In this document: one piece after another, positions 1 to 19,399 of the stretch
Numbering within the stretch: the first letter of the stretch is position 1
How the letters are laid out: each line of letters starts with the position of its first letter
The notes under the pieces: generated by a model
What the model saw: the letters and a program-made list of their open reading frames with translations, nothing else
Told to the model about the DNA's origin: nothing
Databases searched by the model: none
Made by a program: the position numbers and the translations under genes
NCBI GenBank assembly: GCA_016873805.1
Contig: VGVZ01000026.1
Location: 1-46,594, forward strand
Direction of reading: 5' to 3'
Origin: Ignavibacteria bacterium
Lineage (GTDB): Bacteria; Bacteroidota; Ignavibacteria; UBA10030
DNA length: 46,594 nucleotides

Positions 1-2520
1 GGGGGTCCGAAGAATGGGCAACAGTCGCTTGCCCCCAACTTCTGCATTGACGATGGCGTGATAGATTTTCTGCGCTGCCTGATTTGCAAACTCGATGAGC
101 AAGAGAAGCTGGATGAATGTGTTGTCCTTGAGCGTGACGCACTGTTCCCGCCAATCTCGTGCGATCTTCAAGAGTTGTGGGAAAAGCCAGGGTTTGAGGC
201 TGTTGTCCGCATCGCGCAGATAGCGCTCAGACACAAACTTCGCAAGGAGGAAGATGACCTCCTGTTCACGTCTGAGTTTCAGCTCATCAAGCGTGTGAAT
301 GCTCATTTCTCCGACAATGGGAGCGTTCTCGACCTTTGTAGGAATATCGGCAGTAGAGAGCGCCATCCTGGAATCATCTGTGAACTTGGCTGATAGTCGT
401 TCTGCCGGAAGCTCGTATCGGTAACCGGTGAGACGAGGGAAGGTGATTTCACAGGAGATTCGCTCTTCGAGGGCACGAACTCGTGTCGGCATCGGTCCGG
501 GTTGCGGATCAACGGCAGACCCCGCTGATGGAATGAACGAGAAGGGAACGCCATACACTTCGGCATATTCGGGTCGGAACATGCCCTCATCGATTGCAAC
601 GTAGCTCATGCGCCGCAAGCCGCGCCCGACAACCTGTTCGCACAATAACTGCGTCCCGAATGCACGAACGCCGAGGATATGTGTGACAGTGTTTGCATCC
701 CATCCCTCGGTCAGCATCGAAACGCTGACGACGCACTTGATTTGCTCGCCGAGTTTACCGGGCTTTCCGACGGTGTTCATAACTTCCCGGAGGATGTCTT
801 CGTCGGTAAGACTGTCAACGTCGCGGCCCGGAAACCGGAGCCGATATTCCGATTTGAACTCTTCGATCTCGGCAGCAGCGATTCTCTTGAAGTCATCGCT
901 CATTGCTTCGCCGGATTCCAACTGCTGGCTGTCCACAAGAATTGTGTTTGGTCGAGAGCTCCATCGGCCCTTCTCTTCGTTACTGAAGAGGGGAAGCTTT
1001 CCGGGCACGACAATGGCTTCTTCTTCCGAAAGTTGTTTTTCCCATCCTGCGATGTAGTCGTACACCATCTTCGAGACATTTGTGTTGTTACAGACTACGA
1101 TGAAGACGGGTGGCGTGAGACCGCGAGATCGTGCCTCGGTGTTCTCTTCCCACTTCTTGTAGTACTTCGCATAGTTCAGGTAGAGACTTTGCAGGGCGCC
1201 TTCAAGTTCGGCTGGGAGATTAGGTTCACCTGACAGCGCTTGAGTCTTACGCCCCTTCTTTGGCAGATGTTCCCTGATGCGGAGCCAGAGGTCGCGATAC
1301 GTCGGCTGCTGGCCGACCATCGAGTCATCAGCGACAGGAACGCGTGGTACTTTGACGATGCCGCATTCGATAGCATCAATAAGTGAGAAATCGGACACTA
1401 CCCACGGAAACAGAGTGCCTTCCGGATAACCTGATCCACGGAGAAAGAACGGCGTTGCGGAAAGGTCGTAGACTACTTTGAGTCCGATCTTCGCTTTGAC
1501 GGCTTCGAGACCGGAAATCCAAATCCGCGCTTCTTCCTCACGCCTCTCGGCTTCTTTGCGGTCATCTCCTTTGAGGACTTCCTCCTCGCCGTCTGTTTTT
1601 CGCCTGTAACAGTGGTGAGCCTCATCGTTGATGACAATGATGTTCTTCTTGTTCCCAAGCTCTCGACAGACACGGCGGACCATTTGATCGGGAGTTTCCG
1701 TGAACGCTGAACCGTTCCCCTCGCTAAGAATGCTCTTGGTCAGTTTGCCAGCCGAGATTTTTTCACGCTGTTTGAATGCGTGGAAATTCGTGATGATGAT
1801 CTTCGCTTTGCCGAGCTCTTCCCGCAAATCGGCAGGAACGATGTCCATCTCGCGGTAGTAATTCTGGGGATCATTGGGCAGTAACACTCTCAGCCGATCC
1901 CGAATGGTAATGCCTGGCGTGACAATCAGAAACGAGTCAGAGAAAAGAGGATCCTGCGCATTTGCAATCTTGTTCAGGGCGTGCCACGCGATGATCATTG
2001 CCATGACTACTGTCTTGCCTGAACCGGTAGCCATTTTGAAGGCGATGCGATACAGCAGCGGATTTGCCTCAGCGTTGGCAGCATGAATCTTGTTTTCAAT
2101 CCAGCTGTCACCCAACTTTTTGGCCACTTCTGTGACATAGATGGCGGTCTCGACTGCTTCGATCTGGCAGAAGAACAGCTTACGGGCACGATCATCCCGT
2201 TGCCAATGATCGAGCAAAAGCTTTGTGGTTTTGGTAATCGTCGAAGGAGGATAGCCCTGCTTTCGCCATTGGGCCACGCGCTCGCGGATCTGGTTGATGA
2301 ACTTGTTCTCCTCGATCCGGTCTTCGGTCCATTCTGTCTCGAAGGTCAGCTGGTTCTTTGTCTTTTTTCGCGGCTGAGCGATCGGGACAAAATAGGAACT
2401 AACCCTTCGCTCCCCGTCGGCGACCTCGTTTGTGATTCCCGCATCATTGAAGCGAAAGTGACGCGTAGGTTCACGGAAGGGAGAATTCAGGATTGGGTTT
2501 TCTATGACCACTTCTTTCAT
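1..2520 (-). CDS. Type III-like restriction subunit, DEAD/DEAH helicase-nuclease (partial, 3' end off the left edge)
   Basis: The reading frame is open from an ATG at 2520 to base 1 (840 codons), and its C-terminus lies outside the window. Superfamily 2 helicase motifs are clear: Walker A ATGSGKT at residues 164-170, the DEAH box at 299-302 in INDEAHH, DLSATPF shortly after it, and a C-terminal helicase lobe with SMLTEGWDANTVTHILG followed by EQVVGRGLRR. This layout matches Res-type subunits of type III restriction systems, and the N-terminus is most like the BPTD_3080 group (roughly 1,000 residues). Such proteins translocate on DNA and cut with a C-terminal PD-(D/E)XK nuclease. Any nuclease domain and the partner methyltransferase would lie to the left, out of sight. 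A GAGG ribosome-binding site sits 7 bases before the ATG. The function is firm at helicase level and inferred at restriction level. Confidence 0.9.
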   Translation of the reverse strand, partial: MKEVVIENPILNSPFREPTRHFRFNDAGITNEVADGERRVSSYFVPIAQPRKKTKNQLTFETEWTEDRIEENKFINQIRERVAQWRKQGYPPSTITKTTKLLLDHWQRDDRARKLFFCQIEAVETAIYVTEVAKKLGDSWIENKIHAANAEANPLLYRIAFKMATGSGKTVVMAMIIAWHALNKIANAQDPLFSDSFLIVTPGITIRDRLRVLLPNDPQNYYREMDIVPADLREELGKAKIIITNFHAFKQREKISAGKLTKSILSEGNGSAFTETPDQMVRRVCRELGNKKNIIVINDEAHHCYRRKTDGEEEVLKGDDRKEAERREEEARIWISGLEAVKAKIGLKVVYDLSATPFFLRGSGYPEGTLFPWVVSDFSLIDAIECGIVKVPRVPVADDSMVGQQPTYRDLWLRIREHLPKKGRKTQALSGEPNLPAELEGALQSLYLNYAKYYKKWEENTEARSRGLTPPVFIVVCNNTNVSKMVYDYIAGWEKQLSEEEAIVVPGKLPLFSNEEKGRWSSRPNTILVDSQQLESGEAMSDDFKRIAAAEIEEFKSEYRLRFPGRDVDSLTDEDILREVMNTVGKPGKLGEQIKCVVSVSMLTEGWDANTVTHILGVRAFGTQLLCEQVVGRGLRRMSYVAIDEGMFRPEYAEVYGVPFSFIPSAGSAVDPQPGPMPTRVRALEERISCEITFPRLTGYRYELPAERLSAKFTDDSRMALSTADIPTKVENAPIVGEMSIHTLDELKLRREQEVIFLLAKFVSERYLRDADNSLKPWLFPQLLKIARDWREQCVTLKDNTFIQLLLLIEFANQAAQKIYHAIVNAEVGGKRLLPILRTP

Positions 2521-2642
2521 CTTCTTGCCTCGTCTACACGTGAGTCTTTAGGACACTGCCAATATATAAAAGTTCCGTTTGAATGTCGCCAGCGACAACT
2601 CTACAAAACAGTCGATTGCGCACGATGGCCATGTACAATCGA

Positions 2643-2675
2643 AAATCCCCGGAGCAAGGGATGCTACGGGGATTT
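2643..2675 (-). terminator. Hairpin, possible terminator of the upstream HEPN-like gene
   Basis: AAATCCCC (2643-2650) pairs perfectly with GGGGATTT (2668-2675), and the stem extends inward through a G-C pair and AGC/GCT with one mismatch. Read on the minus strand it ends in a short TTTT. It lies about 200 bases after the stop of the 2875-3567 gene and 120 bases before the restriction gene, so it could limit read-through between them. The T-run is short, so this is only a candidate. Confidence 0.45.
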
Positions 2676-2777
2676 GTCGACTCGAGAGACAAAACATTTT
2701 TCGAGATCGAGAAATCGTCCTTGTTGCTGTCGTATCGTCCGCGCTCGCGTGAAGAACACGCGGCACAGAAGAGAAGA

Positions 2778-2818
2778 GTGACAGGTTCCGGCAACGGAAA
2801 TCTTTTTTTTGTTGTCAC
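2778..2818. repeat. Nested inverted repeat with a T8 tract
   Basis: The outer arms GTGACA (2778-2783) and TGTCAC (2813-2818) enclose an inner hairpin, TTCCG-gcaa-CGGAA (2786-2799), and a run of eight T (2803-2810). On the plus strand the inner hairpin plus T-run resembles a weak intrinsic terminator. The 354-base spacer 2521-2874 otherwise holds only the 2643-2675 hairpin and the presumed promoter of the restriction gene, which I could not place. No supported gene was seen in the spacer. Confidence 0.4.
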
Positions 2819-2874
2819 ATGTTCTTTCATATGGATGAGTGGATTTGATATGGAGGCCTTCGTATCCTCTATGA

Positions 2875-3567
2875 TCATGCGCCCTTCGTGTCCTCTGGCG
2901 GAGTGCGGAGGGTGTTAAGTCGTGTTTCTATTCGCTCATAGATCGAATCGGCGAGCACTTGAACTCGTCTCTTACAGTAAGGATGATGGACAATCAGGGA
3001 CTTCGTGTGCTGATCGTCGGTGTCTATAGGGCTTGGCATGTCTTGCACACGAAGAGGGGCAGCGTACTTTCCCCAGTACAGGTATCTCGTGACAACATTC
3101 ATGAGGTCTTGTTCGTCATCTGAGAGAGCGATGCTACAGTTTATACATAGCTGTGAGAGGTCGTGAGTGGCAACGTGTTTCCTAAGTTGTTCTTTGTTCT
3201 CAGCTAGTCCAGGCTCGATCGCGAGCAAGCATCCCTTCAGAAGACACTCAAGAGCATAGCCAAGCAGGAGAAGGTAGTCTTCGAATAACTCAGTGTCCAA
3301 GAAATCGTAGAGTTCCTCTCCCTCAAGAGGTCCCGATTTACCCGAGAGGTGCGAAGGAGACTTAAGCTTCTCACGAAATCTCGCCGTGTCTCGCTCATTT
3401 GCACGATATGCAATCTCGTACAAGATGTCAGCAGCACGCTTGTGCCGGCGCGCAGGTCGAGCCCAACTTATCGGCCATTGCCACGCGGCGAGAAAGGCGA
3501 ATGTGCGCCGTTCCTCGATAAATGATTGTTCTTGTTCGGAGGTAGCATCGTCAAAAATTCTTCCCAT
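2875..3567 (-). CDS. Uncharacterised HEPN-like helical protein
   Basis: This 230-residue, mostly helical protein has no signal peptide or membrane segment. A central stretch with YALECLLKG (104-112), a THDL motif (134-137) and a later RYLYWGKYAAPL resembles a widespread family of HEPN-like hypothetical proteins. An R-x5-H pair occurs at R129/H135. HEPN proteins are often RNases or toxins in defence islands, but this one's activity is unknown. A GAGG ribosome-binding site sits 7 bases before the ATG at 3567. It lies upstream of the restriction subunit on the same strand, 354 bases away, so co-transcription is uncertain. Alternatively it is a cargo gene of the same accessory island. The gene call is good; the family call is tentative. 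Confidence 0.72.
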   Translation of the reverse strand: MGRIFDDATSEQEQSFIEERRTFAFLAAWQWPISWARPARRHKRAADILYEIAYRANERDTARFREKLKSPSHLSGKSGPLEGEELYDFLDTELFEDYLLLLGYALECLLKGCLLAIEPGLAENKEQLRKHVATHDLSQLCINCSIALSDDEQDLMNVVTRYLYWGKYAAPLRVQDMPSPIDTDDQHTKSLIVHHPYCKRRVQVLADSIYERIETRLNTLRTPPEDTKGA

Positions 3568-3680
3568 TGTAGTTCCTCTACTGGTGCTACATGTATCCTG
3601 AAATCAATGTACGCCCAATGCTATAGTACTCGCAAGTATACGGACATGAAACGCTTTACACATCGGCTTGTCTGACAATA

Positions 3681-3714
3681 AACAAAAACCCCCAGAGTCG
3701 TGTCGACTCCGGGG
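3681..3714 (-). terminator. Intrinsic terminator downstream of the M4 peptidase and symporter remnant
   Basis: CCCC (3690-3693) and GAGTCG (3695-3700) pair with CGACTC (3704-3709) and GGGG (3711-3714) around a TGT loop, with one mismatch. On the minus strand the stem is followed by TTTTTGTTT, a typical rho-independent terminator. It lies about 30 bases after the stop of the symporter-tail remnant, the same arrangement as the terminator of the intact symporter gene at 8001-8038. Confidence 0.85.
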
Positions 3715-3742
3715 ATCTCGCATTTGAAATAGAACCCGCCCC

Positions 3743-3793
3743 CTAGTCGCCAAACGGATTGGTCCAGAATCCCCTGTCCTATCTGTTTAGACA
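3743..3793 (-). pseudogene. Remnant of the C-terminus of an AGCS sodium:amino-acid symporter gene
   Basis: Read on the minus strand this stretch encodes C-L-N-R-stop-D-R-G-F-W-T-N-P-F-G-D-stop. The intact symporter at 8064-9518 ends Y-L-N-R-Y-D-N-G-L-L-T-N-P-F-G-D-stop. An ungapped hand alignment of 3746-3790 with 8067-8111 gives 37 of 45 identical bases and 11 of 15 identical residues, with one tyrosine codon changed to TAG. Both copies point the same way and both are followed about 25-30 bases later by a strong terminator. The homology fades within a few codons upstream, where the M4 peptidase gene ends at 3805. It is either the leftover tail of a second symporter gene or a duplicated insertion target. 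The similarity is seen directly; the history is inferred. Confidence 0.75.
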
Positions 3794-3804
3794 GTTTTCG
3801 TTCC

Positions 3805-6800
3805 TCATTTCAGGAGCACCATCGATTTTGTGTCGACATAGTCGCCGGCGCGGAGACGGGAGTAGTAGACGCCGCTCGGCATCATTCCAGGATTCCATTG
3901 AACGGAATAGTTCCCTGGAACAAAATCGGCATCGACCAACTCGGCAACTTCCTGCCCGATTGCGTTGTAGATCTTGAGTTCAACGTGGCATGAACGAGGC
4001 AGAGCGAAACGAATCGTTGTTGCCGGATTGAATGGATTCGGATAGTTCTGCTCGAGAGCGAAGACTTTCGGAATCGCGCTCGCCTCGGTATCCACCACGT
4101 CCGTGACTTGACCAACACGAACGTAGTTGTTCTTGATCTCGTGAGCCATACCCCCGGGGCCGATTACCGTGAGAGACACAGCATATGCGCCGTCGGCCGT
4201 ATAGGTATGGGTAGGATTGCGCTGAGTGCTGGTAAAGCCATCACCAAAACTCCACAAGTAGCTGAGGATGGTCCCTGTCGACTGCGAAGTGAAGCTGACT
4301 GCGAGGGGTCTATTTCCCGAGACGGGTGTTGCGACAAATTGAGCCGCAGGTGAGCTTACCACTTCGCTAACGACTGCCCTGATGTAGTACGTGCGATCTC
4401 GCAACGTCCACGCAGCCGTGCTACTCGATCGGCTCCAGCTCCGACCGTTGGATCCCTCGATGTAACCAAGATAGGGTCTGTTCGTGCCGTCATACTCGAT
4501 GCCAACGTAGAAGTCGCCGTTCACGACCGTGTGGTACGAGGCAATATAGTTTGAGAGATCGACGGTGTACCAACCACCAATCCCTGGATAGATGCGGAAC
4601 CTGGGGATAAGATCACTCCCGGGGATTCCGCTTGAATCCTTGAAGATATGGACATAGCATTGATAGCTGGTCGTATATCCTGTGAAGTAGAACTCCACTT
4701 TTTGGACTGTCGCAGGAATCGCTGGAGGGGTCATGCGGACTGCATACATTCCCCCGGATCCGGTCCATGAAGATCCGCCGGTCGGAGATCCATCGTCGTA
4801 GACGAGCTCGCGTGATGCATCCGGGGTGATCCCGACGGCAGTGAAGCCGCTTTCCACAGCAACGTACTCTGGAGAGTTCAATCCGTAGAGGTCCGCCGCG
4901 GCCCGAAGTGAAGAATTTCGAGCATCGAGGAACTGAGAGGTGTTTGTGAGATATACTGCGAGCGTGCGGAAGTAGATCTTCTCGGTTTTTGAGATGCCGA
5001 TGAGGGAGGCAATCAGATAGCAGGCCCGGTTCGGGATGCCGCTGTTGATGTGCACGCCTCCGAGATCGTTGCTGCTATTGTTGATGAGATTGACGTATTC
5101 AGTCATGTGAGCGGGCTGCCAGTTGGCCCCCAGATGCGGATCCCTGAGGTCCCTCAGCGCATCGCCGGCAACTCCAGGAGTATAGACGTTCTCTCCCATC
5201 TGCCAATTCCCACCGCCGCCGCGGGCGTAGAATTCCACAAACGTCCCAAGCACATCGGCGTATGATTCGTTGAGTGCGCCCATCTGGTTCTCGTACATCA
5301 AGTCTGCAGAAGATTCGATCACGCCATGCGTGATTTCGTGCGCGATGATATCTAACCCGCCGGCCAGGTTTCCAAAGAGAACGCCGTCTCCATCCCCATA
5401 CGTCATGAAGCGGCCGTTCCAAAATGCATTATTGTAGTTGGAACCATAGTGGACAATGCTACGCATGGTTCCCCCTTTTCCATCCCAACTCTCCCGATTG
5501 TGCACCGTTTTGAAGTAATCGTACACAAGCCCTGTGTAGTGATGCGCATCCACAGCCGCGCGCAATTTCTCATTGTCGTCGAACACGTTGTTGGCGTTTG
5601 GATCTTTCACTCTTGTGACACTGCCGAATGCATACCCGAGAGTGTCATTCCGTGCATCCCAAGTTGTGATGACGCCTTGTTCCTTCATTGCGGGAGCGAC
5701 GAACATGGAACGCGAAATATCCACGAGATAGTAATCCGTCCCTGCACGGGTTGTTTTTAGTGTCTTCATGATGCCGTCGAGTCCGCGCCCGGTTCCCTGG
5801 GCCGCCGTGCCCGCGAGTTCCGCCTCCTTAGCCAGCCAAACATCATCGAGGAACGTTCCTCGATAGTTGATCGAACCATCGCTCGTGAAGGAGAAAGCGA
5901 TCCACACCTGCTTTGTACCTCTGAGATCGTCGGACCCCAAAACCGTGAGGTTGAGTTGGTCCTGCTGCCAGCCGTTCTGATCAGCCCCGGCAGTAGTAGT
6001 CCAGTTACCGCTGTAACGAATTCCCGAAAAATTGACGGTGTCCTTTCCAACAAGAACCCAGAAGTAGTCAGCGTTCATTTCCGTAATCGTCCAGTGATAG
6101 TATTCCAGCACCACATCGGTGGCATCCTCGAGGGTGAACGGACCGAACCGGACCATCGTGTTCATGTATGTCGGGTAGTATGATGATACGAACGGATTGA
6201 CACCGGATGTCCCACTTCGGGAGCAGTAAAGGCTTTTTGAACCGCTGCGTGCTTTGAAACTCGTTGTATCCCACAATACGTTCGTACTTCCCGAGTATTT
6301 GCGTGTCCAATCTGTTCCCGGGAATTGTTGCTCGAATCCTTCTCTCAGGATGTCTTGCCAGCTCTGACCTCCCACGGCACCGGTGAGGTTCGATGGATGA
6401 TCTGGCACTCCTGATTCACCGCCGGACGGAACTGCAATGACCCTCGTTTGTGCCGGGTCGACGGTGTAAGAAACATATTCCCTTTTTGCAGTCAGTCTGT
6501 CTTCCTGAACGCCTCGATTCTGTTTGTCACGAATTTGCCGTTGGTGACGGAGACCGTCGTCCTTTTTCAGAATGGCTCCAGTCGATGCATCGATGAAAAC
6601 GTTCATGTTGGGAAACTTGAATGAGGGAAGCCGCACTCGCCAGGCAAGTACAAATACACCATCCTTCGGATACACATACAACTCAGCGGAAGCTTCGCTT
6701 GTGTGATCACGAACCTCCAATTGCGCAATGCGGATAGCCTCCTGGTCGCCAATGGAAGGATTGGTATTCAGTTCGATCGACGGATGGTAACGGCCGTTAA

Positions 6801-7260
6801 CGGTCTGGAGGATTCCCTCCTTGCTGAAATGAGCGATGAGCTGACTTCCCCATATGGGAACTCCTTTATGGACTCGATTGAACTTCAAATGCGCCATTCC
6901 GAGTTCGTCTATCTGTGAGTGTAGAAGCTTCAATTCATTCTGAGGATCGTCGATCTTGAAGATGATCTTCTGGTCTTTGAGGAATTCAAAAACAACCCGC
7001 TGCAATTCTTCGGTGGATCTTCCAGTGACCCTTGCTAGTGTGAGAATGCCGGAAAAGAAAGTGGGCGTTCCGTTCTGTTCATTCCAGCTCACCGAAATGT
7101 GGCCACCACCCTGTCTGGCAAGGGCTTCGATGGCAAGAAGTTGCTCGGGCATAACCCTTGATTCCCGAGATGACTGGGTCTGGTGTTGCTGCACCTGCTC
7201 CTGTGACCAGAGAGAGGCAGTGAAAACGAGCAACACACAGGAAAGAAGTCTGGTTTTCAT
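3805..7260 (-). CDS. Secreted M4 (thermolysin-family) zinc metallopeptidase with PKD and type IX secretion domains
   Basis: The 1151-residue protein starts at the ATG at 7260, which has GGAGG 8 bases upstream and begins a signal peptide (residues 1-20, ending LWSQ). An earlier in-frame start at 7431 would bury it. Domains in order: FTP/PepSY-type propeptide (about 60-230), an inserted beta-sandwich of about 200 residues (about 282-480), the M4 catalytic domain (about 485-805), a second beta-sandwich, a PKD domain (about 970-1050, with WSFGDG), and a C-terminal sorting domain beginning FALEQNYPNPFNP. Zinc ligands are H641 and H645 in HEITH and E665 in NESYAD, with the thermolysin-like spacing of 24. 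H737 in GGVHINSG is the likely transition-state histidine. It should be exported by Sec and the type IX system and digest extracellular protein. It sits downstream of two amino-acid transporters on the same strand. Confidence 0.93.
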   Translation of the reverse strand: MKTRLLSCVLLVFTASLWSQEQVQQHQTQSSRESRVMPEQLLAIEALARQGGGHISVSWNEQNGTPTFFSGILTLARVTGRSTEELQRVVFEFLKDQKIIFKIDDPQNELKLLHSQIDELGMAHLKFNRVHKGVPIWGSQLIAHFSKEGILQTVNGRYHPSIELNTNPSIGDQEAIRIAQLEVRDHTSEASAELYVYPKDGVFVLAWRVRLPSFKFPNMNVFIDASTGAILKKDDGLRHQRQIRDKQNRGVQEDRLTAKREYVSYTVDPAQTRVIAVPSGGESGVPDHPSNLTGAVGGQSWQDILREGFEQQFPGTDWTRKYSGSTNVLWDTTSFKARSGSKSLYCSRSGTSGVNPFVSSYYPTYMNTMVRFGPFTLEDATDVVLEYYHWTITEMNADYFWVLVGKDTVNFSGIRYSGNWTTTAGADQNGWQQDQLNLTVLGSDDLRGTKQVWIAFSFTSDGSINYRGTFLDDVWLAKEAELAGTAAQGTGRGLDGIMKTLKTTRAGTDYYLVDISRSMFVAPAMKEQGVITTWDARNDTLGYAFGSVTRVKDPNANNVFDDNEKLRAAVDAHHYTGLVYDYFKTVHNRESWDGKGGTMRSIVHYGSNYNNAFWNGRFMTYGDGDGVLFGNLAGGLDIIAHEITHGVIESSADLMYENQMGALNESYADVLGTFVEFYARGGGGNWQMGENVYTPGVAGDALRDLRDPHLGANWQPAHMTEYVNLINNSSNDLGGVHINSGIPNRACYLIASLIGISKTEKIYFRTLAVYLTNTSQFLDARNSSLRAAADLYGLNSPEYVAVESGFTAVGITPDASRELVYDDGSPTGGSSWTGSGGMYAVRMTPPAIPATVQKVEFYFTGYTTSYQCYVHIFKDSSGIPGSDLIPRFRIYPGIGGWYTVDLSNYIASYHTVVNGDFYVGIEYDGTNRPYLGYIEGSNGRSWSRSSSTAAWTLRDRTYYIRAVVSEVVSSPAAQFVATPVSGNRPLAVSFTSQSTGTILSYLWSFGDGFTSTQRNPTHTYTADGAYAVSLTVIGPGGMAHEIKNNYVRVGQVTDVVDTEASAIPKVFALEQNYPNPFNPATTIRFALPRSCHVELKIYNAIGQEVAELVDADFVPGNYSVQWNPGMMPSGVYYSRLRAGDYVDTKSMVLLK

Positions 7261-8000
7261 CGTTAGTACCTCCACATGTGTTGGTCTTGTCGATCGGACA
7301 AGAGATTGTTTGTGTAAGAGTTGCTGTGAGGCGAATGGACGTTGATGCCACGTTCTTGATACAGAGTGAGATCTTCTTCCAACGAGGTTCTCTTCTTTTT
7401 CCGCGAGAAACCTAGGTGACTGGAGGGACACATATCACGCGTTGGCCAGACTCAATCGAGTATGATGTTCGCGGTGTGATGGAGCCGGTGGGGCGAGGGG
7501 ACTGATCAATGCTTGTCGACTTGTTGGCTCTTCAACCGAGCTCACTCGTCGTTCGGCACTATTGCGGCGGGAGCTGTGTTTCTATCGGAGACTCCGGCCA
7601 GTCCATTTGAGCACATCCAGATTTCCTGGATGACCTCCCGAGCGCGCAGGAATTATCCCGACGGTTCGGAGTTATCGAAGCCATCAATCGTGCCTGGAGG
7701 ACGGAGACAAAACACGTATGATTGATCTTGTTGAATCCTTCGATGCCTCAGCGTGATGGATGATAGGGGAGTTCTGGAAACTTTGTCTGCTCGATTAGAT
7801 TGGGGAAGAATGTGGTCTCGTCGCTGACACGTCCGGCCGGTTCTGCAATCTGATTGTCGTCCGTCAGCATTGAAATAAGGGATATGATACTCACGCAAAT
7901 GTACCTTGTTCGCCTCGTTGTGTCAAATGAAAGCATATTAACTATCAGTCAGGGCGGAGGATCATGCGTGACATATGGGAAGAAAGGTCAGCCGGGGGGC
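7261..8000. other. Long intergenic gap upstream of the peptidase gene
   Basis: These 740 bases contain only short, mutually overlapping ORFs with no recognisable motif and no convincing ribosome-binding site. I see no tRNA. The only structure noted is the hairpin at 7285-7303 in the peptidase leader. I found no confident promoter. The gap is unusually long for this window and lies between the two copies of the symporter tail, so it may be decayed sequence from the event that placed the peptidase here. Confidence 0.6.
7285..7303 (-). promoter_or_regulatory. Perfect 7-bp inverted repeat in the peptidase leader
   Basis: TCTTGTC (7285-7291) and GACAAGA (7297-7303) are perfect complements around a 5-base loop, 25 bases before the peptidase start codon and next to its GGAGG. 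It could be an operator or an mRNA hairpin affecting translation. No regulator is identifiable. Confidence 0.35.
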
Positions 8001-8038
8001 AAAACAAAACCCCCGCGATGCAGATCATCACGGGGGTT
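8001..8038 (-). terminator. Intrinsic terminator of the NSS-AGCS transporter operon
   Basis: AACCCCCG (8008-8015) pairs with CGGGGGTT (8031-8038), and ATG/CAT extends the stem after a small internal mismatch. On the minus strand it is followed by TTTTGTTTT. It begins about 25 bases after the symporter stop codon. Confidence 0.88.
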
Positions 8039-8063
8039 CGACGTGTCGAAGACCAGTGTTTCG

Positions 8064-9518
8064 TCAGTCCCCAAACGGATTCGTCAAGAGTCCGTTGTCG
8101 TATCTGTTGAGGTAGTCGTTTGTCACTTTGCGTACCAATCCGCCCAGCAACACGAGGCCGATCAGATTCGGAATTGCCATCAACGCATTTCCGATGTCGC
8201 CGAAATTCCAGACGATCTGCAAGTAGTCTCCCTGCAGCACCGCACCGAAAAACACGAAGATGCAGAAGATGTATCGGTAGGGCAGAACGCTCCGCGTTCC
8301 CCACATGTACTTTGCTCCTTGTTCGCCGTAGTAGGACCAGCCGATCAACGTCGTGTATCCAAACAACAGACTACTCAGGCTCACAATCCATCCGCCGAGG
8401 TCGGCGCCTAATCCGACCGCGAACGCGGATTTCGTCAATTGTGTACTCGTCAGCTTTTCGGTCGCTTCGGGATGGAGCAGACCGGACGACAAGATCACAA
8501 AGGTGGTCATACTGCATACGATAATGGTGTCGATGAAGGTTCCCATCATGGCAACGAGACCCTGCGCGGCCGATTCATTTCCCTTTGCCGCGGCGGCAGG
8601 AATCGAACATGATCCGATTCCCGATTCGTTTGAAAGTGTCCCTCGTGCAACACCATAACGAATCGCCTCCTTCACGGTATGGCCGAGGAATCCCCCCACG
8701 ATTGCCTCGTTGGTCAGAGCAGATCCGAGGACGACCATCAGCATATCCGGCACCACAACGATGTTCGTGATGATGACGTATATTCCCGCTCCCATATAGA
8801 GAACGATCATTCCCGGGACAAGTCGTTCGGCAACGGCCGCAATCCGTTTCACCCCGCCGATGATCACCAGTCCCACAATGATCGCGAGTCCGAGTCCGGT
8901 CCAGATAAACGGAACGCTGAAATCGCTGTGGAGAGCGAGTGCGATTGAGTTCGATTGCGCCATGTTGCCGCTCCCAACGGTTGCCATCAGCACGACGGCA
9001 ATGGAAAACCACAATGCAAGGAACTTCCCGAGACCCTTCCACCGCAGGCCGTCACGGAGATAGTACATCGCTCCTCCGCTGAAGGTCCCGTCGGCTGTCT
9101 TGATGCGGAACTTGAGTCCGAGCATTCCCTCCGCATACTTGGTCGCCATACCAAATACAGCAGTCATCCACATCCAGAAGGGGGCCCCGGGTCCGCCGCT
9201 CGCGATCGCTGTTGCGACACCGGCGATGTTTCCGTTTCCGACCGTTGCGGCCAGCGCAGTCATCAATGCCTGAAACGGCGTGATGTCTCCCGTTCGAGCT
9301 TCCATCTCCGCTTTGTTCCGGCTGCGAAGCATAAACCGGATTGCCATGCCCAGTCGGCGAACTTGGATGAACCGGGTCTGAATCGAAAGATAGATCCCCG
9401 TGATGGCCAGGAGGACGACGACACCGGGGAAGAACGGAACACCGGGAATCTCGGGCCACCAGATGTGGTCCGCGATGAGTGTGGTGATTTCAAGAAGTTG
9501 ATCGAGGAACTGGTTCAT
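8064..9518 (-). CDS. Alanine/glycine:cation symporter, AGCS family
   Basis: This 484-residue inner-membrane protein has about ten hydrophobic segments and the family signature TVGNGNIAGVATAI at about residues 92-105. Its length is normal for AGCS carriers, which import alanine or glycine together with sodium (or protons). The substrate cannot be fixed from sequence. The ATG at 9518 has AAAGAGG closely upstream. It lies 24 bases after the stop of the NSS transporter gene, so the two are almost certainly co-transcribed from the promoter at 10928-10956 and end at the terminator at 8001-8038. Its last 15 codons recur as a decayed copy at 3743-3793. Confidence 0.93.
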   Translation of the reverse strand: MNQFLDQLLEITTLIADHIWWPEIPGVPFFPGVVVLLAITGIYLSIQTRFIQVRRLGMAIRFMLRSRNKAEMEARTGDITPFQALMTALAATVGNGNIAGVATAIASGGPGAPFWMWMTAVFGMATKYAEGMLGLKFRIKTADGTFSGGAMYYLRDGLRWKGLGKFLALWFSIAVVLMATVGSGNMAQSNSIALALHSDFSVPFIWTGLGLAIIVGLVIIGGVKRIAAVAERLVPGMIVLYMGAGIYVIITNIVVVPDMLMVVLGSALTNEAIVGGFLGHTVKEAIRYGVARGTLSNESGIGSCSIPAAAAKGNESAAQGLVAMMGTFIDTIIVCSMTTFVILSSGLLHPEATEKLTSTQLTKSAFAVGLGADLGGWIVSLSSLLFGYTTLIGWSYYGEQGAKYMWGTRSVLPYRYIFCIFVFFGAVLQGDYLQIVWNFGDIGNALMAIPNLIGLVLLGGLVRKVTNDYLNRYDNGLLTNPFGD

Positions 9519-9542
9519 ATTGCCTCTTTCGGAGACTGATGA

Positions 9543-10880
9543 TTAAAAGCCGAATAGTTTCTGGCCAAGGACTACCAGGATAACGACGGGACAAACGAAT
9601 CGGAGGAGCACGCCCCATATCGCAAGAAGGAACTTGCTCGAGGATTCCGCTCCGAGGGAGAGTTCCTCGCTCGCCTTCCGTGTCGTCCAGACCCAACCGA
9701 CAAAGATCGAAAAGAAGAACCCTCCGAGCGGGAGTGAGACATCGCCGAACAGGAAATTCATCATGTTGAGAAAGCCGGTTTGCCCGAAAATCTCGAACGA
9801 CGTGAGTCCCGCGGACGCGCCAAGAGAGAGTGCAGACGGGATGCCGACGACAAAGACAAGAGCGCTGATGATCCAGACCGCCTTCGCGCGGGACCAGCCT
9901 TTCTGATCCACGAGGAACGCGACAGGAACTTCGAGAAGAGAAACCGTCGAGGTCAATGCGGCAATCGCAAGCAGAACAAAGAAGAGAACTCCAACGAACG
10001 TGCCGGCCGGCATCTGTTCGAAGATTGTCGGAAGAACATTAAAGACGAGTCCGGGACCCTGAGACGGCTCGAGGCCGGCGGAAAAAAGGGCAGGAAAGAT
10101 AACCAGGCCGGCCAGGACGGCAATCAACGTGTCCGAAAATCCCACCGCGACGGCACTCGTGACCACGTTATCTTTCTTTGAAAGATAGCTTCCGTAGGTG
10201 ATCATCGTCCCCATTCCGAGACTCAGCGAGAAGAATGCTTGTCCGAGGGCCGCGAGAATCGTCGAACCGGTAATCTTACTGAAATCGGGATTCAGATAGA
10301 ATTGCACTCCCACCGATGCACCCGGAAGCGTGAGTGCGAACGCAATGAGACCGAGCAGGATGACGAGGAGCATCGGCATGAGGATCTTCGACCAACGCTC
10401 AATCCCCTTTTCCACTCCCCCCAGCACGACGAAGAGTGTGAGTCCGAGAAACACTGCGAAATAGAACAACTGGCTGTACGGATCCGCGAGAAAATCGCTG
10501 AAGCTCGTCGTCGAATGAAGAAGGGTTCGGAAAATGAACGCGATGGTCCAGCCGGCAATGACAGCATAGAACGAGAGGATAAAGACCCCGGTCGCAACGC
10601 CGAGATACCCGACGACCGGCCAGGAACGCGAACGGGAGAGCTTTTTGAATGCGCCGACGGGATTGAGAGTGGTGTGGCGTCCCATCGAAAGCTCGGCGAT
10701 GAGAACAGGAATCCCAATGGCAAGCACGCACGCAAGATACATGAGGACAAATGCCGCTCCTCCATTTTGTCCTGTCACGTACGGATATCGCCAGATGTTC
10801 CCCAGACCGATTGCCGATCCGGTCGCGGCGAGAATGAATCCGAGCTTTGAGCCCCAGGTCCCTCGCGTAGTTGGTTCCAT
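9543..10880 (-). CDS. Sodium-dependent transporter, NSS/SNF family
   Basis: This 445-residue membrane protein starts WGSKLGFILAATGSAIGLGN, the family's first helix with its sodium-site glycine-rich stretch, followed by IWRYPYVTGQNGGAAF. Bacterial members such as LeuT and MhsT import amino acids with sodium. About 11-12 hydrophobic segments are visible. The ATG at 10880 was chosen over an upstream in-frame start at 10919 because protein similarity begins only here and GAGGAG lies 11 bases before it. It is the first gene of a two-gene operon with the AGCS symporter. Both carriers plausibly take up amino acids released by the neighbouring secreted peptidase; that link is inferred. Confidence 0.93.
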   Translation of the reverse strand: MEPTTRGTWGSKLGFILAATGSAIGLGNIWRYPYVTGQNGGAAFVLMYLACVLAIGIPVLIAELSMGRHTTLNPVGAFKKLSRSRSWPVVGYLGVATGVFILSFYAVIAGWTIAFIFRTLLHSTTSFSDFLADPYSQLFYFAVFLGLTLFVVLGGVEKGIERWSKILMPMLLVILLGLIAFALTLPGASVGVQFYLNPDFSKITGSTILAALGQAFFSLSLGMGTMITYGSYLSKKDNVVTSAVAVGFSDTLIAVLAGLVIFPALFSAGLEPSQGPGLVFNVLPTIFEQMPAGTFVGVLFFVLLAIAALTSTVSLLEVPVAFLVDQKGWSRAKAVWIISALVFVVGIPSALSLGASAGLTSFEIFGQTGFLNMMNFLFGDVSLPLGGFFFSIFVGWVWTTRKASEELSLGAESSSKFLLAIWGVLLRFVCPVVILVVLGQKLFGF

Positions 10881-10927
10881 CGTGCAGTCATCTCCTCGAT
10901 CGCGGTGATATCGACACAAGTGCGCTT

Positions 10928-10956
10928 ATTATACTTAACGGGGTTGAAAGAAGCAA
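10928..10956 (-). promoter_or_regulatory. Sigma70-like promoter of the NSS-AGCS operon
   Basis: On the minus strand TTGCTT (-35, 10951-10956) is followed after exactly 17 bases by TATAAT (-10, 10928-10933), a near-consensus sigma70 promoter about 45 bases before the NSS start codon. Confidence 0.75.
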
Positions 10957-11031
10957 TGGAAAGAGCGGAGTGGGGGACACGATCCTGTTTGGTTTGCATG
11001 TCCCCTGGGGAAGGTTGGGCGACGGCAGGAC

Positions 11032-11907
11032 TTACTTCCTCTTGCGCTTGACAGGTTTGTAGACGGGATCAACCCCGAATTCGCTTGAGGCCCACAGGGT
11101 GAGGATCGATGCGATTCCAGCGATGGCCCGTTTCACATCTTCCTCGTGAATTACCAGACCATACGTATCGGCGACAACGTGCATGTTGTCGAGGATCTTC
11201 TCGGCGGCGCGACGATCGATGTTGCCGTGCCAGTATTCGACCTGGTCGAGAATCATCAGCTCGTGCCGGCGGAAAAACTCTCCCAGCGAGATGACGTTTT
11301 CGCTGAGCGCCGTGCGGGGTTTACAAATCTTCAGGAGATCTTCGACGAATTCGTCCCACAACTGTGCGAAGGATTGGTTGGCCGAGCGCCGGAGGTACCT
11401 GGCTCGCGCAAGAGAAAACCTCGCCTTGGTCTTGACACGAAACAAGGGGATCACCGGATGGAAGTCATAGAACTTGTGGATCGCCTCTTCGTCGTACTCA
11501 TCCTGCTGCTTGAAGACCCACATGTGCTTGAGCTGACCCCACGTCGCGATTTTCACGACGGCCGGTTCCTGACTATCAAGAAGAATGAACTGTCCCTTCT
11601 CTTCTTTGACGACCGTGACCCAGTGACTCCAATCCTGGATGCACAAGAGCGAAGGAATTCCACGTCGAAGGTACGAGGTGAGTTCGCGTCGTGCTTTTTC
11701 GGGATCATATTTCCGGACCATTTGAAGTTCGCAATCGTACGCGCGCGCTGCGCGGCCGAGCTTGATCTCGTCGGTTCCGTTCCACCAGTGAGTGCCGGCA
11801 CGCCGAGAGATTTCGTTTTCGTTCACAAGAATGCCGTGCATGATGAGGGCATGCTTCAGGGCGAACGGTCCACACTGCCAATCATTGGGTTGAGGATAGA
11901 TACCCAT
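11032..11907 (-). CDS. C39-like papain-fold cysteine protein
   Basis: The N-terminal half reads as a C39-type papain-like peptidase: QPNDWQCGPFALKHALIMHG carries the candidate nucleophile Cys12, SHWVTVV the catalytic His, and ILLDSQEP the Asp. The C-terminal half is a charged, helical extension ending in a basic tail. There is no signal peptide or transporter domain, so it is not a classic C39 bacteriocin exporter. The ATG at 11907 is preferred because AAGGTGAT lies 10 bases upstream. A TTG at 11928 in the same frame is possible and adds 7 residues. It is divergent from an ATP-grasp ligase gene whose start is 124 bases away. The substrate is unknown. Confidence 0.8.
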   Translation of the reverse strand: MGIYPQPNDWQCGPFALKHALIMHGILVNENEISRRAGTHWWNGTDEIKLGRAARAYDCELQMVRKYDPEKARRELTSYLRRGIPSLLCIQDWSHWVTVVKEEKGQFILLDSQEPAVVKIATWGQLKHMWVFKQQDEYDEEAIHKFYDFHPVIPLFRVKTKARFSLARARYLRRSANQSFAQLWDEFVEDLLKICKPRTALSENVISLGEFFRRHELMILDQVEYWHGNIDRRAAEKILDNMHVVADTYGLVIHEEDVKRAIAGIASILTLWASSEFGVDPVYKPVKRKRK

Positions 11908-12031
11908 AATACGCGCGATCACCTTCAATTTGTCAGACCGAAACTACCCAAAGATTGAGCCAATATCAACGGCGTCCTCTTGCCGATCATTAGAAAGTTG
12001 CGGATATTCGCTCAACATCGGAGTCGAGGGA

Positions 12032-13090
12032 ATGGGTGATTTGAAACCATCGGTCGTTGTGCTGGTGAACCAGATCGGGGAGGATGAATACGAGCAGATG
12101 CGGCAGGTCGATCCGGCCACGCTGGGATTCAAGCCGGAGTACGATATTCATGTCTTGACCGTCCGCGAGGAGTACTCAGCCATCGTGAAAGCGCTTCGCA
12201 GGGAAGGGTTTCGGGTGCGTCTGGTGAACCTGGAGGAGAATCTGAGGAAGCTGGAACGAGTCCTTCATCGGAATCCGCCGGATGTGATCTTCAACCTTGT
12301 GGAGCATTTCAGGGACCGTTCGGAACTGGAATTCGCGGTCGCGGGCCTCTTCGAGCTTCACGGGATTGCCTATACGGGCGGGGGGCCGTTTTCGCTCGCG
12401 CTCTGTCAGCGCAAGGGCTTGACGAAACAGGTGTTGCTCGCAAACGACGTCCCGACGCCGCGCTTTCGTATCCATCTGACGCCGGACATCCTGCGTCGCC
12501 ACGGTCTGCATTATCCCCTTATCATCAAGCCCGCCCGGGAGGATGCCAGTTCAGGGGTCGATCGCGATTCGGTTGTGTACGACTATGAAGAGCTCAAGAA
12601 AAAGCTCGCGCAGGTTTTCACGGAGTATTCCCCTCCGATTCTCGTCGAGGAATTCATCGAAGGGAAAGAACTGCATGTGAGCGTCTTCGGGAATGATCCC
12701 CCCGTCGTTCTGCCGATGATCGAATTCGATTTCTCCGAACTTCCGGAAGATCATCCTCGAATCATCAGCTACGATGCGAAATGGAACCCGCTCGACGAGA
12801 TCTATCATCGGGTGCACTCGGTGTGCCCTGCGCGGATTTCCAAACGCGCGCACAAGAAGGTAACCGAAATCGCGACCGACGCGTACAAGATTACGGGCTG
12901 CCGCGATTATGCCCGTCTCGACATCCGCCTGGACAAGCACGATCACCCCTTTGTCCTCGAAGTGAACCAGAATCCCGACCTCACCGAGGGGGTCTCGTTG
13001 ATGGAATCGGCGGAGCAGGCCGGTTACTCGTTCTCGACTGCACTCCGCATGATCGTGGAATTCGCCCTCGCCCGAAAGCGATCTCGGTAG
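12032..13090 (+). CDS. ATP-grasp ligase related to D-alanine--D-alanine ligase
   Basis: This 352-residue protein has the D-Ala-D-Ala-ligase-like fold order: an N-terminal alpha/beta domain with DVIFNLVEHF and ELHGIAYTGGG, then an ATP-grasp domain with PLIIKPAREDASSGV (nucleotide lysine), ILVEEFIEGKELHVSVFG, and the metal-binding end VLEVNQNPDL. Family members join a carboxylate to an amine using ATP. It is diverged from housekeeping Ddl, and its neighbours are not cell-wall genes, so the substrate is open. The ATG at 12032 was chosen because similarity begins there. The longer frame from a TTG at 11930 would overlap the divergent gene's leader. The ribosome-binding site is poor (GAGGGA right at the ATG). 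Confidence 0.85.
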   Translation: MGDLKPSVVVLVNQIGEDEYEQMRQVDPATLGFKPEYDIHVLTVREEYSAIVKALRREGFRVRLVNLEENLRKLERVLHRNPPDVIFNLVEHFRDRSELEFAVAGLFELHGIAYTGGGPFSLALCQRKGLTKQVLLANDVPTPRFRIHLTPDILRRHGLHYPLIIKPAREDASSGVDRDSVVYDYEELKKKLAQVFTEYSPPILVEEFIEGKELHVSVFGNDPPVVLPMIEFDFSELPEDHPRIISYDAKWNPLDEIYHRVHSVCPARISKRAHKKVTEIATDAYKITGCRDYARLDIRLDKHDHPFVLEVNQNPDLTEGVSLMESAEQAGYSFSTALRMIVEFALARKRSR

Positions 13091-13093
13091 GTA

Positions 13094-13125
13094 TTTGTCT
13101 CCTCCCGCAACTTTGCGTATCTTTG
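13094..13125 (+). promoter_or_regulatory. Bacteroidota-type promoter upstream of mutS
   Basis: TTTG (13094-13097) and TATCTTTG (13118-13125) are separated by 20 bases, matching the Bacteroidota primary-sigma consensus of TTTG at -33 and TAnnTTTG at -7. It lies 60 bases before the mutS start. Confidence 0.65.
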
Positions 13126-13184
13126 CATAGCCGTACGGCCGACCTTGTTCGGTTCCTATCCAATGGAAATGTGACTGCCTCTCC

Positions 13185-15800
13185 ATGTCAACACCGCTGA
13201 TGCGTCAGTACCAACAGGTGAAATCCCGCTATCCGGGAACGATTCTGTTGTTCCGGATGGGTGATTTCTATGAAACGTTTGAAGAGGACGCGAAGATCAC
13301 CGCAAGGGTGTTGGGCATCACTCTGACCAAGCGGGGGAACGGTGCGGCTGGGGAAGTACCGCTTGCCGGATTCCCTCACCATGCGTTGGAAGCATACCTT
13401 CCGCGTCTCCTTAAAGCCGGTCATCGCGTCGCAATCTGTGAACAGCTCGAAGATCCGAAATTCGCCAAAGGGATTGTGAAGCGTGATGTCATCGAGGTGG
13501 TGACGCCCGGCGTTGCGTTCTCGGAAAAAGTCCTCGATCATCGCCGCAACAACTATCTTGCCGCTGTCGCGCTTCCGTCGGCGATTGCGAATGGAGAAGA
13601 ACTGATCGGCTTCGCGTTTGTCGATGTTTCCACCGGTGAATTCCGCGCGAGCGAGCTTCCGATGAAACACCTGGCCGAGCAGGTTGGAAATCTCCGCCCT
13701 GCGGAAATCCTTCTGCAGAAGAGAGATGCAGAGACCGTCGAATCGCTTCTCCGTCGCTCCTTTGACGGCATCTACACAAAGATCGATGATTGGGTGTTCA
13801 ACTTTGAATATGCCTACGATTCACTGATCAATCACTTCAAAACTCATTCGCTGAAGGGTTTTGGGATCGAGACGTTCCGCATCGGGATTGTCGCGGCGGG
13901 TTCGGCGATGCATTACCTCCAGGAAACGCAGAAAGCCAACATTCCTCACATCCGAAAGATTCTTCCGCATGATGTGAGCGATCACATGGTGCTCGATCCC
14001 TCGACCAAACGGAATCTTGAGATTACCTCCACCCTCGAGGGAGCCGAAGAGGGATCCCTCTTTTCGGTCATCGATCGAACCGTCACCCCGATGGGAAGCC
14101 GCCGTCTCAAACGGTGGATCAATCACCCGTTGAAGAATCTCGGTCCCATCAACGCACGACTCGACGCGGTCCGGGAGTTGATCACGGACGAATCAAGGAG
14201 GAATGTGCTCCGAGGTGTGTTGCACCAATTCGGCGATCTGGAGCGGTTGATCGCGAAGATCGCCACCGCACGGGCAAATCCCCGCGAAGTCAACCAGATG
14301 CGCGTGTATCTCTCGCTGATTCCGGAACTGATCACGACGATCGGATCGCTCGAATCCACGATGATCAATTCGCTCCGAGAGGCACTGGATCCCCTTGAAG
14401 GCGTGGTGCAGACGATCGCATCGGCTCTCGACAACGACCCGCCACTTGCGTTGGCCGACGGGGGAGTGATCAAGAGGGGATACAACACGGAGCTGGACGA
14501 ACTTCGGTCGCTCGCATATTCGGGAAAGGATTGGATTGCCAAGCTTCAGCAATCGGAGCGCGAACGAACCGGTATTCCGTCGCTGAAGGTGGGATTCAAC
14601 AATGTCTTCGGATACTATATTGAAGTGACGAACACCCACAAAGAAAAGGTTCCGGACAACTACATCCGCAAACAGACGCTGACGAATGCGGAACGTTTTG
14701 TCACGCCGGAGCTTAAAGAGTATGAACAGAAGGTGCTCAGCGCCGAGGAGAAAATCGTTGCCCTGGAAACGCGGCTCTTTAACGAACTTCGCGTTGTGAT
14801 CGCGGAACATTCGGAATCGGTCCAAAAGAACGCGTCGGCGATCGCATCGCTCGACTGCCTGGCATCGCTGGCTGATATGGCGGTTGCGAACAAATTCGTG
14901 TGTCCCCAGGTCGATGATTCACATGTGATTGAGGTCGTCGAAGGGAGACATCCCGTCATCGAGGTACTCTTGCCCCCGGGCGAACAGTTTACGCCAAATG
15001 ACGCCTCGCTAGATCCCGAGTCAAGCCAGATACTCATCATCACCGGCCCGAATATGAGCGGGAAGTCGAGCTACCTGCGTCAGGTCGGATTGATTGTCCT
15101 CCTGGCACAGATCGGCAGCTTCGTTCCTGCGGCGTCGGCGCGGATCGGGATCGTCGACAAGATCTTCACGCGCGTCGGTGCGAGTGACAACATCACGTCG
15201 GGAGAGAGTACGTTTCTTGTGGAGATGCATGAAGCGGCGCACATCGTCAACACGGCAACGAAGCGAAGCTTGATCCTTCTGGACGAGGTGGGACGAGGAA
15301 CGAGCACGTTTGACGGGATCAGCATCGCGTGGGCGCTTTCCGAGTATCTGCATGATCGGGTCGGAGCGAAGACCCTTTTCGCCACCCACTACCATGAGCT
15401 GAACGAACTCGCCGAATACTTCCCGCGGATCCGCAACTTCAAAGTCGATGTCAAAGAGTATGGCGACAAGGTCATCTTTCTTCATAAAGTGCTTCCGGGT
15501 TCGGCTGATCATTCTTACGGGATTCAGGTCGCCCAAATGGCAGGTCTCCCGGACGAGATCACCGATCGGGCAAAACATATTCTTCGAAACCTCGAAGGAT
15601 CGGAATTGAGTCCGCACACCCAGGGATCGGCGCAGCGGCGTCCCTCCACGGGAAGAATGCGAGAGCCGGATGTTCAAATGACACTGTTCGAAATGAGCGA
15701 CGAGGAGATTCGCGCCGAACTGCGCGCGATCGATCCGGATGCGCTCACGCCTCTCGATGCCCTGAAGAAACTTTCCGAGTTGAAAAAGAAATACACGTGA
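13185..15800 (+). CDS. mutS: DNA mismatch repair protein MutS
   Basis: This 871-residue MutS is of normal full length. The mismatch-reading loop GDFYETF with its Phe-x-Glu lies at about residues 26-32. The connector, lever and clamp regions follow, and the ABC-type ATPase has Walker A GPNMSGKS at about 621-628 and LLDEVGRGTSTFDG as Walker B/signature, then FATHYHELNEL. The tail contains a DVQMTLFEM-like segment, the usual position of the beta-clamp-binding peptide in MutS. It recognises mismatches and small loops and recruits MutL. The start at 13185 matches the family N-terminus (TPLMRQYQQVK). A Bacteroidota-type promoter lies just upstream, and three plus-strand genes follow with short gaps. 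Confidence 0.98.
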   Translation: MSTPLMRQYQQVKSRYPGTILLFRMGDFYETFEEDAKITARVLGITLTKRGNGAAGEVPLAGFPHHALEAYLPRLLKAGHRVAICEQLEDPKFAKGIVKRDVIEVVTPGVAFSEKVLDHRRNNYLAAVALPSAIANGEELIGFAFVDVSTGEFRASELPMKHLAEQVGNLRPAEILLQKRDAETVESLLRRSFDGIYTKIDDWVFNFEYAYDSLINHFKTHSLKGFGIETFRIGIVAAGSAMHYLQETQKANIPHIRKILPHDVSDHMVLDPSTKRNLEITSTLEGAEEGSLFSVIDRTVTPMGSRRLKRWINHPLKNLGPINARLDAVRELITDESRRNVLRGVLHQFGDLERLIAKIATARANPREVNQMRVYLSLIPELITTIGSLESTMINSLREALDPLEGVVQTIASALDNDPPLALADGGVIKRGYNTELDELRSLAYSGKDWIAKLQQSERERTGIPSLKVGFNNVFGYYIEVTNTHKEKVPDNYIRKQTLTNAERFVTPELKEYEQKVLSAEEKIVALETRLFNELRVVIAEHSESVQKNASAIASLDCLASLADMAVANKFVCPQVDDSHVIEVVEGRHPVIEVLLPPGEQFTPNDASLDPESSQILIITGPNMSGKSSYLRQVGLIVLLAQIGSFVPAASARIGIVDKIFTRVGASDNITSGESTFLVEMHEAAHIVNTATKRSLILLDEVGRGTSTFDGISIAWALSEYLHDRVGAKTLFATHYHELNELAEYFPRIRNFKVDVKEYGDKVIFLHKVLPGSADHSYGIQVAQMAGLPDEITDRAKHILRNLEGSELSPHTQGSAQRRPSTGRMREPDVQMTLFEMSDEEIRAELRAIDPDALTPLDALKKLSELKKKYT

Positions 15801-15847
15801 TGGAGTGAAGAAAAATCCCGTATGAACACAGAAAGGCCGAAGTCTCG

Positions 15848-16450
15848 ATGTCCCGGAGCGATTTTCTTGTGCTGAGGAACCATGGCATGTTTCATTTCAA
15901 AGACGTGAAGGTCCCGAGAAGCCTCATTGACCGGAAATTCCAGAGCGGTTGCAGTATTCAGAATTGTGATGCCACATGTTGCGCCCAGGGAGTGTTGGTT
16001 GATCCCGTCGAGAAGGCGAGGATCCTCTCCCACGCCCTGTTAATTCTCAAGCACATGGAACCACATCAGGAAAAGAATCCGGCAAAGTGGTTCGAAGGTG
16101 AAGAAGAAATCGATTCGGATTTTCCTTCGGGGAGGGGAGAGGGAACACAGACACGGGAGTACGGTTGCGTCTTCCTCAAGCGAAACGGCCATTGTGTGCT
16201 GCAAGCCGCCGCGACAGCCGAGGGGAAGCACAGGTTCATGCTGAAACCATTCTTCTGCATCGCGTATCCAATCACTATCCACCAGGGTATGGTGGAACTC
16301 GAGGACCTCGAGTACGCCGATCGTAAATCATGCTGTAACGCGGATGACACGGGAGCCCTGAGCGCCATCGAGGTCCTCGCCGCGGAATTCGAATTCGTGC
16401 TGGGCGCCGAAGGTTTCGAGGAATTGAAACGCCTTTCCAGTAAGTCCTGA
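15848..16450 (+). CDS. DUF3109-like cysteine-rich protein
   Basis: This 200-residue soluble protein has many cysteines in family-typical positions: C35, C40, C44 and C45 in CSIQNCDATCCAQG, then GCVFLKRNGHC, KPFFCIAYPI and SCCN near the end. The pattern resembles DUF3109, a Bacteroidota-enriched relative of the YkgJ/Fe-S-cluster-type cysteine-rich proteins; metal binding is likely but unproven. It lies 47 bases after mutS and 26 before the phosphatase gene on the same strand, so it is probably in the same transcript. The ATG at 15848 has AAAGG upstream at a long spacing. M14 is a possible alternative start. Confidence 0.82.
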   Translation: MSRSDFLVLRNHGMFHFKDVKVPRSLIDRKFQSGCSIQNCDATCCAQGVLVDPVEKARILSHALLILKHMEPHQEKNPAKWFEGEEEIDSDFPSGRGEGTQTREYGCVFLKRNGHCVLQAAATAEGKHRFMLKPFFCIAYPITIHQGMVELEDLEYADRKSCCNADDTGALSAIEVLAAEFEFVLGAEGFEELKRLSSKS

Positions 16451-16476
16451 TTGTCTCATTCTCAATTGGAATCGCA

Positions 16477-17709: not shown

Positions 17710-17730
17710 CGTTCTGGAGGATTTGGCTCA

Positions 17731-19338: not shown

Positions 19339-19361
19339 CAGCAGTGTGAGAACCAGTCATG

Positions 19362-19393
19362 AAGGGGCTGACACAGCGATGCGTCAGCCCCTT
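19362..19393. terminator. Bidirectional terminator between convergent genes
   Basis: AAGGGGCTGAC (19362-19372) and GTCAGCCCCTT (19383-19393) form an 11-bp perfect stem with a 10-base loop. It lies 24 bases after the HerA-like stop and 7 bases after the acnA stop on the other strand, so it can serve both. The T-runs are short (TTT on the plus strand). Confidence 0.75.
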
Positions 19394-19399
19394 TGTCGT

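Follow-up and report, generated by a model that had tools for sequence, protein, structure and literature searches.

The window analyzed here, a stretch of 46,594 nucleotides (contig VGVZ01000026.1 of assembly GCA_016873805.1, an Ignavibacteria bacterium; C26 below), raises the question of how the end of a symporter gene came to be present twice, once in the gene itself and once more behind the gene of a secreted peptidase. Read along the minus strand, the order is symporter gene (AGCS), hairpin, gap, peptidase gene, 14 bases, tail copy, hairpin, an ORF of 230 aa, an ORF of 114 aa and a restriction subunit gene (Res), with the following features:

8064-9518, minus strand: intact gene of an AGCS family sodium:alanine symporter, 484 aa (ORF; Pfam Na_Ala_symp, E 6.8e-125; the sole copy in the genome)
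8067-8111, minus strand: repeat copy borne by the gene, i.e., the last 15 AGCS codons (37/45 with 3746-3790)
8007-8039, minus strand: terminator-like hairpin 3' of AGCS (folding z -3.29 for 7990-8066)
7261-8063, no strand: gap from AGCS to the peptidase gene
3805-7260, minus strand: gene of a thermolysin-type (M4) secreted peptidase (ORF; Pfam Peptidase_M4, Peptidase_M4_C, FTP and PKD)
3791-3804, no strand: 14 bases from the peptidase stop codon to the tail copy, the presumed join site (from the sequence; an extended alignment is unconvincing here)
3743-3790, minus strand: displaced AGCS tail made up of 15 codons, one of them an internal TAG, and closed by a TAG stop (repeat and translation)
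3685-3719, minus strand: terminator-like hairpin 3' of the tail copy, now the nearest one to the peptidase gene (folding z -2.84 for 3670-3745)
2875-3567, minus strand: protein of 230 aa, function unassigned, patchy presence (no Pfam or PADLOC match)
2534-2878, minus strand: possible ORF of 114 aa (no PADLOC or Pfam match)
1-2520, minus strand: Res gene, coding for the restriction subunit of a type III system and truncated by the contig end; the distant portion of the accessory stretch starts here (Pfam ResIII, E 1.4e-11; PADLOC REase_III, E 5.8e-05)

A preliminary description of this DNA had claimed a tail duplication in the same orientation, matching at 37 of 45 bases and broken by a TAG, and direct alignment bears this out: positions 3746-3790 align with the last 15 AGCS codons (8067-8111) on the same strand and without gaps. 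In a repeat search, the slightly longer pair 3745-3795 / 8066-8116 (51 bases, 80%) was the longest direct repeat within 3500-9700. The copy begins 14 bases beyond the peptidase stop codon (3805-3807), and its minus-strand translation reads LNR*DRGFWTNPFGD, compared with LNRYDNGLLTNPFGD for the gene, i.e., the frame is preserved, one internal TAG interrupts it, and 11 of 15 residues are alike (residues counted by hand). The gene itself ends in TGA and the tail copy in TAG. Being AGCS-like (37/45 bases, 11/15 residues), in frame and terminated by a stop codon (TAG), the copy has features expected of an AGCS pseudogene, although no more AGCS sequence was found upstream of it, where the local blastn match stops at 3790. 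By hand count, the eight base differences between the copies fall on five third, two second and one first codon positions, a number too small to distinguish selection from drift.

A repeat this short could be a match driven by composition, or a conserved motif that has nothing to do with AGCS, and part of the query does also match two other genomes (G031, E 0.012; G029, E 0.098), where the matching segments proved to be internal coding stretches of an unrelated gene. However, when positions 3650-3820 were searched by blastn against the whole genome, the top non-self match was 8066-8111 (E 1.7e-6) and the next match listed from the same genome had an E-value of 1.66. A base rate was obtained by testing the 45-base tails of 1033 genes that encode 150 aa or more (taken from the window, 80 loci, L145, L148 and L152), five of which have a match of at least 37/45 on the same strand within 10 kb, the other four being 45/45 matches. 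As the copy furthermore lies on the right strand, runs in frame to a stop and is followed by a terminator, we regard this explanation as extremely unlikely, a chance match being rejected on the whole-genome E-value together with the base-rate scan. The repeat is a real, non-random gene-tail scar. In a 200-base test of the 11 close relatives (loci L053-L063, 73-83% identity), no comparable copy was found downstream of AGCS, the best result being a 20-base match (E 0.002) in L062.

The claim that a terminator follows each copy also held, as terminator-like hairpins are located at 8039-8007 (z -3.29) and 3719-3685 (z -2.84). Past the stop codon, an anchored alignment over 40 bases scored 9, which is less than the shuffle mean of 12.2 and was reached by 122 of 200 shuffles; over 80 bases, with both hairpins included, the score rose to 48 vs. 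a shuffle mean of 22 and was reached by 8 of 200. The terminators of the two copies might thus be homologous too, which would favor duplication, but two unrelated hairpins at a like distance would do the same. On the peptidase side, the anchored extension is weak, with scores reached by 10 of 200 shuffles for 40 bases and by 43 of 200 for 80 bases. Given that the frame is kept to the stop codon and that the flanks past it do not align over 40 bases, the end of a diverged AGCS allele fits better than a fresh target duplication, and as just 45-51 bases are left, any history is underdetermined.

One such history, put forward in the preliminary description, is that of a second symporter gene: a tandem duplicate of AGCS (or of its 3' part) would have diverged, and the peptidase gene would then have replaced nearly all of this second copy, sparing the tail and the terminator. 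It agrees with the finding that the two tails are closer to one another (37/45) than to those of any of the 11 relatives (19-29/45 for the copy and 19-30/45 for the gene), with the copy being in frame with a stop codon, so that it once ended a gene, and with a terminator 50-odd bases on in both copies. However, this genome (G000) has a single AGCS gene, and in genome and locus sets without a same-genus genome, neither a tandem pair (0/61 relatives) nor a second AGCS-like stretch (0/80 related loci, the best 80 of 152, several of them short) was found. At E 0.001, AGCS was detected in 19 of 61 genomes, three of which have two matches, none of them tandem (on two contigs in G036, at two contig ends in G046, and as adjacent pieces covering different parts of the query in G016), and at E 1e-150 in 10 of 98 genomes of the order, in one place each. 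Replacement also requires duplication, divergence, deletion and insertion. A replaced second symporter therefore found no positive support, and we consider it rather unlikely; a lineage-specific AGCS duplicate, later lost, is possible.

What lies beyond AGCS elsewhere can be seen in the close relatives. In four of the 11 (L053, L057, L058 and L059), SurE is encoded 0.5-1.3 kb beyond AGCS and in the opposite orientation; of the other seven loci, one (L054) stops 715 bases after AGCS, whereas six are without a SurE match within the 2.5 to 10 kb examined. The neighbors upstream (symporter, MutS and others) are present in several of the 11 loci, as judged by tblastn of the window ORFs. With conserved flanks and differing contents at 4/11 loci, the AGCS-surE interval is marked as a variable stretch in this family. 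Across genera, the ORFs carried in this space differ, and L058 and L059, which belong to one genus, have one in common. The situation resembles a defense-bearing hotspot in that AGCS and surE are neighbors in 4/11 relatives with differing contents in between, here Res, Mod, the peptidase and others, and differs in that the join between C26 and the contig carrying surE (C11) is reconstructed here rather than sequenced.

This reconstruction rests on a split restriction locus. The lone SurE match in the genome is at C11:3735-4520, and to the left of surE the contig has a DNA methylase ORF at 206-2125. The left end of C11 encodes residues 281-955 of Mod (65% to the Mod of G007), the methylase part, which spans 125-2122 of L152, the locus that represents C11. 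The left end of the window, on the other hand, corresponds to residues 1-835 of the G007 Res protein (988 aa; 78% identical), and in G007 Res and Mod adjoin with one ORF between them. Most likely, then, a single type III restriction locus has its two sides on the ends of C26 and C11, i.e., the contigs are neighbors. With Res and Mod split over the two contig ends, the gap between AGCS and surE would probably be at least 8063 + 3731 bases, so that accessory genes, and among them the tail copy, probably fill 11.8 kb or more between the two genes. This link crosses both an assembly gap and a repeat, as the first ~128 bases of C11 recur at C23, C31 and C56 (two at contig starts, the third probably at a contig end). 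Since the start of C11 is repeated on other contigs, a repeated element appears to break the assembly inside or beside mod; it is perhaps an insertion sequence, and mod may be interrupted by it. One place only was found for Mod in the genome, and no match to residues 1-276 of the protein turned up. Res and the 230 aa protein are patchily distributed: at E 1e-30, Res has matches in 7/61 genomes, its own among them (90% identity in one case), and at E up to 1e-5 the 230 aa protein has matches in 3/61, again with its own counted. The mod-to-surE interval contains a 400 aa ORF without a Pfam match (L152:2392-3594), a possible further accessory gene.

The peptidase has an FTP propeptide, a PKD domain and a C-terminal tail that resembles a sorting domain (Pfam), the Por_Secre_tail match (E 0.00017) falling below the curated cut-off of that family; the open frame reaches 7431 (GTG). 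In the DNA available for each of the 11 close-relative AGCS loci, tblastn gave no match to the peptidase gene (11/11). Matches at E 1e-60 occur in 10/61 genomes including its own, the others being 46-50% identical over the catalytic part, and at E 1e-150 in 1/391 genomes of the class, namely its own, with few candidates scored per genome. No donor was found among the 61 genomes or, with the same few candidates scored per genome, among the 391 of the class.

The preliminary description had also considered an insertion at the 3' end of the symporter gene with duplication of the target, and the two parts of this claim fared differently. Insertion is supported by surE lying 0.5-1.3 kb past AGCS in 4/11 relatives and by the lack of a tblastn match to the peptidase gene in all 11 loci, while target duplication is not: similarity past the stop codon could not be shown, 8/45 bases differ, a recombinase is absent among the tested proteins, and the insert is probably longer than the repeats would delimit. 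Gene 3' ends are a usual attachment place for integrating elements, and integrative elements that insert there leave a direct repeat. A site-specific mobile element with the two repeats as its attachment sites would fit the repetition of a gene 3' end in the same orientation, with extra DNA flanked by the copies, and the variable content beyond AGCS, which includes a defense gene pair. However, neither an integrase nor a transposase was seen among the 8 and 6 proteins tested against Pfam (small ORFs covered in part), no tRNA was seen in the parts scanned (window 4021-6566 left out), and the repeats are just 82% identical, differing at 8/45 bases. The accessory genes, moreover, probably continue beyond the second repeat, so that the repeats would not bound the accessory stretch; they bound the peptidase stretch, and blastn of window positions 1-9600 against C11:1-14000 gives just a 15-base match. 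We consider such an element distinctly unlikely, and less likely than import or lineage-specific duplication.

The explanation that we favor, with a probability of roughly 0.45, is that the copy is a joining scar, i.e., the end of an AGCS allele of the same or a close lineage, left behind with its own terminator when DNA made up of the 3' end of an AGCS gene, the gap and the peptidase gene was joined in next to it. The incoming DNA (AGCS 3' end, gap and M4 peptidase gene) would have paired with the resident AGCS at one end, which served as the homologous anchor, and its other end would have been joined with little homology just before the last 15 codons of the resident gene. The outcome would be an intact, possibly chimeric AGCS, followed by the peptidase gene and then by the stranded resident tail and terminator, placed before the older accessory genes. 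A single import of this kind would be the simplest history, and by it the peptidase stretch would have entered the variable AGCS-surE region. The repeat and its rarity, the single AGCS gene, the AGCS-surE neighborhood in relatives and the restriction-system link of the two contig ends are observed, whereas we infer that the contigs adjoin, which tail was resident first and by what route recombination took place.

Short joins of this type are described for laboratory transformation of transformable bacteria under the name homology-facilitated illegitimate recombination, HFIR (in the account of PMC6382021, which cites the primary papers). As far as that account goes, HFIR would put foreign DNA beside a homologous anchor, with a short-homology join opposite, as proposed here; the present case differs in being read from sequence, with no donor or same-genus empty site found. 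A more far-reaching version, in which accessory DNA of this lineage repeatedly enters at the AGCS 3' end via an uncharacterized route, with the gene and its terminator restored at every entry and the previous tail and terminator left behind for reuse by the newcomer (here the peptidase), seems to us highly doubtful. The case is an ordinary trace of genome rearrangement and no new system is implied. It illustrates how a rearrangement can be dated and located from the short scar of a gene tail, and how a gene that has just arrived may come to lie right before a ready-made terminator.

Which of the two tails is the resident one is touched upon by the stop codons. Among the 11 loci, AGCS ends in TAG in L053 and L054, in TGA in eight and in TAA in one, and the stop of the copy with the bases that follow it (TAGGGGG) is identical to the end of AGCS in L053, which belongs to the two closest loci, a weak hint that the copy may be the resident tail. 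In trees built from halves of AGCS, the 5' half of the window gene groups with L055 and L056 (support 0.737) and the 3' half with L061 (0.992). This discordance is not a clean test of a mosaic, points to no donor and does not decide the matter, i.e., it gives no clear answer.

The gap between the two genes, estimated in the preliminary description at ~740 bases, measures 803 bases from the AGCS stop codon to the peptidase ATG and ~746 without the terminator. The base composition, for which a comparison with the flanks had been proposed, is not decisive, with a GC content of 0.50-0.55 across 3501-8000 vs. 0.53-0.57 across 8501-20000. A degraded gene within the gap was considered and rejected (two ORFs, both without a Pfam match), as was an RNA element, there being no Rfam match at E up to 0.1 across 3500-8200. 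Within the gap, positions 7530-7575 have a 46-base match (83%, E 1.1e-4) in one of 30 other genomes (G006:C122:736-780), where the matching segment lies in a coding region.
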